From positions 1,736,001 through 1,800,000 of the forward strand of contig NZ_ABIZ01000001.1 in assembly GCF_000172155.1 (NCBI RefSeq): a stretch of DNA of 64,000 nt, read 5' to 3'. Under the pieces are notes generated by a model. That model did not search any database and was not told the origin of the DNA. It worked only from the letters and a program-made list of their open reading frames with translations. Below are positions 41,491 to 64,000 of the stretch, in pieces. The first letter of the stretch is position 1, and each line of letters starts with the position of its first letter. Source of the stretch: Verrucomicrobium spinosum DSM 4136 = JCM 18804. GTDB lineage: Bacteria > Verrucomicrobiota > Verrucomicrobiia > Verrucomicrobiales > Verrucomicrobiaceae. The translations under genes were made by a program, and so were the position numbers.

Positions 41491-41563
41491 GCCGGTTTTT
41501 TTGCCGCGCGGTCCTCATGTCGTCCGGCGCCGCAGTCGTATGGCGAACCGAGCCGCCTAAAGG

Positions 41564-41932
41564 CCAATGCCATCGGGGAAAACGCATCGTCTTGCTGTTT
41601 GCCTTGGCGCGCCTCGGAGCCGCGATGGTGCAACCGCCACGACTGTAACTGGTGAGCCCCTTTCAGAAGGGCCGAAGGTCCGGGTTCATACCAGCCTGGG
41701 GCAGCGCCCCAGGTTAGGGGTTGAAAGAAAATCGGAGGGCTGAAGGCCCGGCCTCATCAATCCTGCCCACGACGAGCATCCCTGAATGACGTCGGGCCTA
41801 CAGCCCTCAACATCTAAAACGAGCGCCTACCTTGGGTGTTGCCCAAGGCTGCAATGATGCCGGACCTTCGGCCCTCAATACTTTCACAAAAGGGAGATGC
41901 TCGACCTCTCCACTTTTCCCTGATGGCATTGG
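41564..41932. repeat. 369-bp palindromic element with 19-bp terminal inverted repeats (copy A)
   Basis: Ends are CCAATGCCATC-x-GGGAAAA (41564-41582) and its inverse (41914-41932), 18 of 19 matching. Inside is a string of hairpins: CCTGGGGC / GCCCCAGG (41695-41713), GGGCT-GAAG-GCCC near 41738, GGGC-CTAC-AGCCC near 41795, CCTTGGG / CCCAAGG near 41830. The segment from ~41661 to 41932 recurs inverted at 63724-64000 at high identity. It carries no gene and fits a miniature inverted-repeat element. Confidence 0.85.
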
Positions 41933-41959
41933 TCCCGCATGCGGGACGGTACTCCAACC
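41932..41959. repeat. REP hairpin with conserved 12-nt tail
   Basis: GTCCCGC-AT-GCGGGAC (41932-41947) is followed directly by GGTACTCCAACC, the same tail that follows the REP hairpins beside the RAYT at 28.7-29.1 kb. The stem differs while the tail is identical. Confidence 0.75.
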
Positions 41960-42040
41960 CCGCTGCGGAACGGAGGAGGTAGTCCGGCTGTCCCCAGCCG
42001 GGGTCGGAGCGGAGGAGAGGGTGCTCTGTGGCACCGCGCT

Positions 42041-63629: not shown

Positions 63630-63678
63630 AGTGCTTAGTGCTTGGTTCTTGGTTCTTGGTTCTTGGTTCTTGGTTCTT
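63630..63678. repeat. Heptamer array (AGTGCTT x2, GGTTCTT x5)
   Basis: Seven contiguous 7-bp units without interruption, in a stretch with no gene. The AGTGCTT form links it to the array at the end of the CPBP gene. Confidence 0.85.
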
Positions 63679-63723
63679 GGGGCGGCGCAGGCGCGGGCGA
63701 TAGGGCTGTGTCCTGGATTCAGC

Positions 63724-64000
63724 CCAATGCCATCAGGGAAAAGCTGGTGAGGTCGATGATTCGCCTTTGGCGAACGAGCTGAGGGCTGAAAGCCCGGCAT
63801 GATAGCAGCCTTGGGCAACGCCCAAGGTTGGCGTTGGTTTTAGAGGTTGAGGGCTGTAGGCCCGGGGTCATTCAGGGATGCTCGTCGTGGGCAGGATGGA
63901 TGAGGCCGGGCCTTCAGCCCTCCGATTCTCTTTCAACCCCTAACCTGGGGCGCTGCCCCAGGCTGGTATGACACCGGACCGTTGGTCCTCAGTTTCATCA
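63724..64000. repeat. Palindromic element copy B (inverted, cut by the window edge)
   Basis: Read on the minus strand, it matches 41661-41932 almost throughout, including the terminal CCAATGCCATCAGGGAAAA (63724-63742), both CCAAGG/CCTTGG and CCAGG/CCTGG hairpins and the intervening GACGAGCATCCCTGAATGA. The other terminal repeat should lie just beyond the window. No gene is present from 63561 to the end. Confidence 0.85.

Follow-up and report, generated by a model that had tools for sequence, protein, structure and literature searches.

Introduction

Among described elements, the one that most invites comparison is ISRm22 of Sinorhizobium meliloti. The passages that treat it place it in the IS4 family, subgroup IS4Sa, and describe a transposase-bearing element with 6-bp repeats and 9 chromosomal copies (PMC1525189, PMC2266710), and unequal repeats at its flanks are ascribed to recombination between copies (PMC1525189). 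The element analysed here, element E of Verrucomicrobium spinosum, is like ISRm22, so far as those passages describe it, in having IS4-family ends at the symmetry axis of a REP palindrome and in having some copies with unequal flanks. It differs, in a comparison made by description, in being gene-less, in having 8- or 10-bp repeats and many more copies, and in the fixed 14-bp palindrome found at half of its copies.

A transposase gene without a frameshift is named as a hallmark of the IS4 family (PMC2266710), and the entry for subgroup IS4 in Table 1 of the same source gives a length of 1400-1650 bp, ends of the form -AATR--------WTW---- and direct repeats of 10-13 bp. By that entry, a transposase-bearing carrier of E-type ends described below is like subgroup IS4 in its length (1456 bp, within the range) and in a YREK signature read by eye. 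The ends of E, CAATG, fit -AATR only if the outer C is counted as target, no WTW was found by inspection, and 10-bp repeats are obtained only under the correspondingly shifted reading. Of bacterial MITEs, the part of the literature consulted names NEMIS, RUP and ERIC (PMC3733652), which by description are, like E, short, gene-less, hairpin-rich and multicopy with inverted ends, whereas strict landing in REP centres is a feature of E. A literature search returned no paper joining 'Verrucomicrobium spinosum' with 'miniature inverted-repeat'.

Results

The window, that is the whole stretch of 64,000 nucleotides that was analysed, corresponds to C1:1736001-1800000 of a single-contig genome of 8,220,857 bp, and the features of E within it are collected in Table 1. 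The preliminary description gave the ends as inverted at 18 of 19 positions, and the two terminal repeats are indeed complementary at 18/19 (95% of 19 nt); the element is free of overlap with ORFs of 100 aa or more. The inverted second copy that it placed at the right edge is likewise real, with its other end past the window: the entire copy is C1:1799724-1800049 (326 bp), and its right flank 8-mer, GCTTCAGC, which lies beyond the window, is identical at 7/8 positions to the left flank, GATTCAGC. Tandem GGTTCTT repeats lie beside this second copy at about 63640-63680 of the window, and a similar run is found beside the E copy at genome position 6509843.

Table 1. Features of element E and its surroundings, in window coordinates
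Feature	Position	Strand	Remarks
Element E copy 1, 371 class, non-coding MITE	41564..41932	+	369 bp, 93.8% to class consensus
Left terminal inverted repeat	41564..41582	+	CCAATGCCATCGGGGAAAA
Right terminal inverted repeat	41914..41932	-	reverse complement CCAATGCCATCAGGGAAAA
Left REP half with core	41550..41563	.	GAGCCG + 8-bp core CCTAAAGG (41556-41563)
14-bp palindrome	41933..41946	.	TCCCGCATGCGGGA, adjoining E where the duplicated core is expected
Right REP half	41947..41961	.	CGGTACTCCAACCCC
Two local hairpins, one arm	41669..41713	.	41669-41681, 41695-41713
Two central local hairpins	41737..41806	.	41737-41749, 41794-41806
Two local hairpins, opposite arm	41830..41875	.	41830-41848, 41862-41874
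Weak Acido-Lenti-1 match	41668-41713	-	23.2 bits, gathering 37
Weak Acido-Lenti-1 match	41830-41875	+	24.1 bits, gathering 37
Element E copy 2, 325 class	63724..64000	-	cut by window edge
Copy 2 left flank 8-mer	63716..63723	.	GATTCAGC

The pair of copies recognised at first belongs to a dispersed repeat with inverted ends and far more than two copies. BLAST of E against its own genome gave 86 match rows, which include matches of the inverted arms to one another, and 22 of these rows span positions 1-369. The end motif CCAATGCCATCNGGGAAAA occurs 107 times at up to 2 mismatches in this genome, against 0 for a reversed-pattern control. When ends with at most 3 mismatches each and less than 2.5 kb apart were paired, the genome stretches examined contained 43 end-bounded elements and 15 single ends. 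The terminal inverted repeats are 19 bp long, with the sequence CCAATGCCATCAGGGAAAA, and are complementary at 19/19 positions in the majority consensus of the 22 copies of the 371 class. There are two main classes, of about 371 bp and 325 bp, with 22 of the 43 elements measuring 368-374 bp and 10 measuring 319-326 bp; the other 11 measure 160, 231, 237, 378, 383 (three) and 430 bp or, bearing inserts, 1688, 1734 and 2133 bp. Within the 371 class, identity to the consensus is 97.6% or more in 15/22 copies and 80.2% in the most divergent one. The 369-bp query matched 14 of 57 genomes, its own included, but near-full-length elements were found only in its own genome, in G001 and in the genome of a sister species (G003), with pieces of 24-111 bp elsewhere. 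In 386 genomes of the order, the end motif at one mismatch matched 66, and more than three places were found only in these same three genomes.

The flanks of E indicate where it lands. Reading outward, most consist of an 8-bp core (CCTTTAGG, CTTTTAAG, CATTTATG, CGTTTACG), then CGG, then either NACTCCAACC or NTCAGG, and these two flank types make up a palindrome that is dispersed in the genome, GGTTGGAGTNCCG[core]CGGNTCAGG, each being one half of it; a search for GGTTGGAGTNCCG followed by CGG within 34 bases gave 218 places, some of them overlapping, against 3 for the control. A second palindrome, GCAGGCTTTAGCCTGC and its variants, is also struck by E. Among the 62 flanks without the exact 14-bp palindrome, 43 are core-CGG, 7 core-CTG and 12 other. 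In the 20 elements that lack this palindrome the flank 8-mers are identical in 6, within one mismatch in 12 (these 6 included) and different at two or more positions in the other 8, whereas 10,000 shuffled flank pairings gave means of 0.55 identical and 1.50 within one mismatch and never reached the observed values. A search of the flanks for target-site duplications, as the preliminary description had proposed, was therefore successful in 12/20 testable copies. The agreement of the flanks together with the core-CGG pattern indicates that E inserts at the centre of the REP palindrome, CCG[core]CGG, and that the 8-bp core is duplicated. The core is preceded by G and followed by C, both together in 17/20, and given that G and C stand outside the core in REPs, a 10-bp duplication with element ends CAATG...CATTG fits equally well.

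Since E inserts in the middle of a REP, its flanks are REP halves. The REP reported earlier as abutting the window copy does adjoin it, but as one half of the broken target and not as an incidental neighbour. In the window copy the 14-bp palindrome occupies the right flank, so that no duplication is visible there. A search for its empty orthologous site gave no match in G003 or G002, and the G001 contig starts inside the query.

The 14-bp palindrome TCCCGCATGCGGGA stands in place of the duplicated core at one side at least in 22/43 elements (right end in 15, left end in 5, both ends in 2), giving 24 junctions in all, and one further element (genome 6392783) has a one-base variant of it. CGG follows the palindrome in 24/24 junctions, and the REP half is ACTCC in 22, near-ACTCC (GTGCTCC) in 1 and CAG in 1. 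The palindrome was considered as a fixed extension of E and this was rejected, as it tracks the REP half and not one end of E. Long common flanks behind the palindrome were also rejected, the sequences diverging, by eye, after about CGGNACTCCAACC. Of 41 exact palindromes in the genome, at least 29 adjoin the E ends listed, and two of the other 12 are uninterrupted REPs (5058840, 7674946). G001 has 62 palindromes and G003 has 14, several of which adjoin E. Two loci could be aligned with G003 across one E-flank junction, and at these G003 has an 8-bp core, CTCAAAAG or ACTTTAGT, where the own genome has the palindrome; at the first locus the left flanks are unalignable, and at the second E is cut off by the end of the contig. 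The palindrome is also found in a different kind of repeat at three loci (L112, L115 and L121; genome 2634215, 4929745 and 8055521), where it adjoins GTAGTCANNG, a sequence that resembles GTAG-tagged REPs.

Transposase-bearing elements with the ends of E were found in other genomes. The sister species G003 holds a 1456-bp element (L196, 910-2365) with exact E ends and a transposase in two overlapping frames, which give 78.5 and 45.9 bits against NF033592 over profile positions 1-221 and 259-329; neither frame alone reaches the 115-bit cut-off of the family. A Y-2-R-3-E-6-K signature is recognisable by eye. Measured against the frameshift-free transposase of the IS4 family this element, the only copy in G003, deviates in its two overlapping frames, and the split is taken, as a so far unproven reading of the sequence, to be decay. 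The second carrier (G018, L195) has the same ends, a more decayed transposase and an IS5-type insert. Neither carrier has clean duplications (ACTGAAGT versus CTTTTGTG in G003, GCTTCAGT versus ACTTCAGC in G018). With the first G003 frame as query 6/57 genomes were matched, and no transposase of the carrier type was found in the own genome at an expectation value of 1e-8 or less. Of four further homologues examined, two (L216, L220) are enclosed by AATGCC-type inverted ends, AATGCCGTTAAGGATTC and CCCAATGCCGTTAAGTTT, and such ends were not found around L218 and L219. By eye, E and the G003 carrier share little besides their ends, and a simple internal deletion of this carrier was for this reason rejected as the origin of E. 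As to an autonomous relative, then, carriers with the same ends exist in G003 and G018, but the transposase is broken in both, and the search of the own genome brought up none; the source transposase, first entered as unknown, now probably belongs to an IS4-family transposon, to judge from the 1456-bp element.

Three copies of E hold inserts. Two units with E ends, of 1688 bp (L061:1011-2698) and 1734 bp (L063:1003-2736), are flanked by the duplications GCTGAAGC and GCTTTAGC, and in each there is an intact gene for an IS4-family transposase of 382 aa (177.7 and 176.9 bits against a cut-off of 115). This gene lies in a nested IS that is bounded by inverted ends of its own, ATAAGCGCTAACTTAA, and by a duplication separate from that of E, GGGGCAACGCCCC or GGGGCAGCGCCCC, with a length of 13 bp, or of 11 bp on the assumption of CAT ends. 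The site of the nested IS is the tip of an E hairpin (the second of the 41669..41713 arm), which is unbroken in E371 and E325, and the two nested ISs have opposite orientations relative to E. The nested IS has 2 copies in the own genome and none in 56 other genomes at 1e-20, and a wider scan of the contig collection with its transposase gave 2 loci, L171 and L172, relatives with the same inner ends without E, L171 beside GGGGCTAGCCCC. The nested IS is a second palindrome-targeting IS. In the third copy, of 2133 bp (L062:1002-3134), a group II intron occupies the middle (RF00029 at 49.0 bits, gathering 40; RVT_1 at 119 bits), with the group II maturase model at 265 bits, below its cut-off of 300, and a reverse transcriptase apparently split over two frames. 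By eye the intron starts just past the first E hairpin, at GGGCCCGGGGTC/GTGCG, and given that about 160 bp of the E middle were not found in this copy, it is not a plain insertion.

The fold of the window copy is far below that of shuffled sequences (z -11.3, 100 shuffles). Its six local hairpins were tested on 14 chosen elements, 10 from the own genome and 4 from G003. Cells were paired in 94.4%, against 91.8 in shuffles; changes on both sides occurred in 5/36 pairs, located in helices 1, 2 and 6, against 2.9 in shuffles, of which 21/500 reached this number; and the covariation score was 0.110, against 0.058 shuffled and at most 0.045 slid. Further pair types, one of five measures, were not above shuffles (8 against 9.4), and one pair of the second central hairpin never forms. 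A single long conserved hairpin was rejected, its covariation term being +0.71 with 4/76 pairs compensatory. The conservation of interior hairpins asserted at the outset is thus upheld by some compensatory change in the local ones, but the long consensus hairpin lacks covariation.

The arms of E resemble the Acido-Lenti-1 family (RF01687) in their two-hairpin layout, with weak matches in several copies, and E differs in its further hairpins, its transposon ends and its scores. No match reached the gathering score over the whole window, the other E elements scanned gave at most 34.0 bits (gathering 37), and since all matches are below gathering, E was not filed under RF01687. The family itself matched 45/57 genomes at an expectation value of 0.001 or less, 39 of them over the cut-off, with controls at 0/14; there are up to 46 matches per genome and 23 in the own genome. 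At 8/30 RF01687 loci of relatives (L141-L170) there is an IS200-type Y1 transposase (PF01797, 73.8-109 bits), and the same motif search gave 0/20 chance loci and 2/29 E loci, those two by motif only. In L158, L160 and L165 the Y1 gene lies between the arms of an inverted repeat of which the RF01687 match is a part, an arrangement absent from most of the 30 loci; Y1 genes flanked by inverted repeats are mentioned in the literature (PMC3733652, in the part consulted). This raises the possibility that Acido-Lenti-1 'sRNA' loci in these bacteria are often repeat DNA next to, or part of, Y1 transposons. Upstream of one E-type element there is a match to the Guanidine-II (mini-ykkC) riboswitch (L067:381-428, 40.4 bits, gathering 32).

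Discussion

It is suggested that E is a non-autonomous IS4-family MITE that was moved in trans into REP centres with duplication of the core, a reading to which a probability of about 85% is given. The form of a MITE without a coding region, proposed from the window alone, is supported by the number of copies, the conserved inverted ends, the target duplications and the ORF search, and is backed also by elements of other genomes in which these ends enclose a transposase. In this scheme a working IS4-type transposase, once present, would have bound the ends of E in trans, and E would have been joined to staggered cuts across the centre of the REP palindrome, a joining that would leave the core duplicated on both sides. 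The hairpins of E would later have become targets for other elements, namely the two nested ISs and the one group II intron. As the search of the own genome yielded no transposase of this kind, E can probably no longer move there, and is most likely an orphaned IS4-type MITE.

Other origins of E were weighed against this one. The 1688- and 1734-bp units have E ends, duplications and an intact IS4-family gene, from which it might be concluded that E is a deletion derivative of the IS4-type IS inside them and that this IS is its mobiliser. This is extremely unlikely: the nested gene has its own ends and its own duplication and belongs to a separate IS, its site is unbroken in E371 and E325, the two insertions have opposite orientations and the relatives L171 and L172 have the inner ends in the absence of E. 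The nested gene was accordingly rejected as the transposase of E. An involvement of the REPs themselves, with E being spread by a RAYT-like Y1 (HUH) transposase or by REP recombination and its inverted ends being incidental, would agree with the location of E in REPs and with the REP-type 14-bp palindrome at one side at least in 22/43 copies. It is nonetheless very unlikely, given that the 8-bp flank matches lie far above shuffling, which is the mark of a DDE transposase, and that identical ends surround IS4-type transposase frames in two other genomes. To our knowledge, HUH insertion leaves no target duplication.

The compensatory changes in the local hairpins, the strong fold and the weak RF01687 matches could also mean that E persists chiefly for a role as structured RNA, for instance one like Acido-Lenti-1, or as a regulatory element, and is not a transposon remnant. 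This too has a very small probability, slightly below that of a spread with the REPs: the RF01687 scores are all below gathering (best 34.0 of 37), the end motif and the duplications are of transposon type and the fold of the whole element lacks covariation support. An RNA role as such would not exclude the reading of E as a MITE.

The palindrome junctions are the one puzzling feature of an element that otherwise combines known kinds, a REP-targeting MITE with IS4-type ends. The preferred, if unproven, explanation is that E copies underwent ectopic gene conversion with one another, which the longer common sequence of the ACTCC half would favour. It is also conceivable, but unlikely, that a dedicated activity, for example a RAYT-like enzyme that swaps hairpins, acted on E once inserted and put the fixed palindrome in place of the duplicated core beside one REP half; if this were true, a hairpin would be rebuilt beside that REP half.

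In summary, E adds a gene-less element with IS4-type ends that lands in REP centres. REPs in this way become nested landing pads, from REP to E and from E to an IS or a group II intron, and annotation should heed that the intact gene carried by two E copies codes for the transposase of another element.
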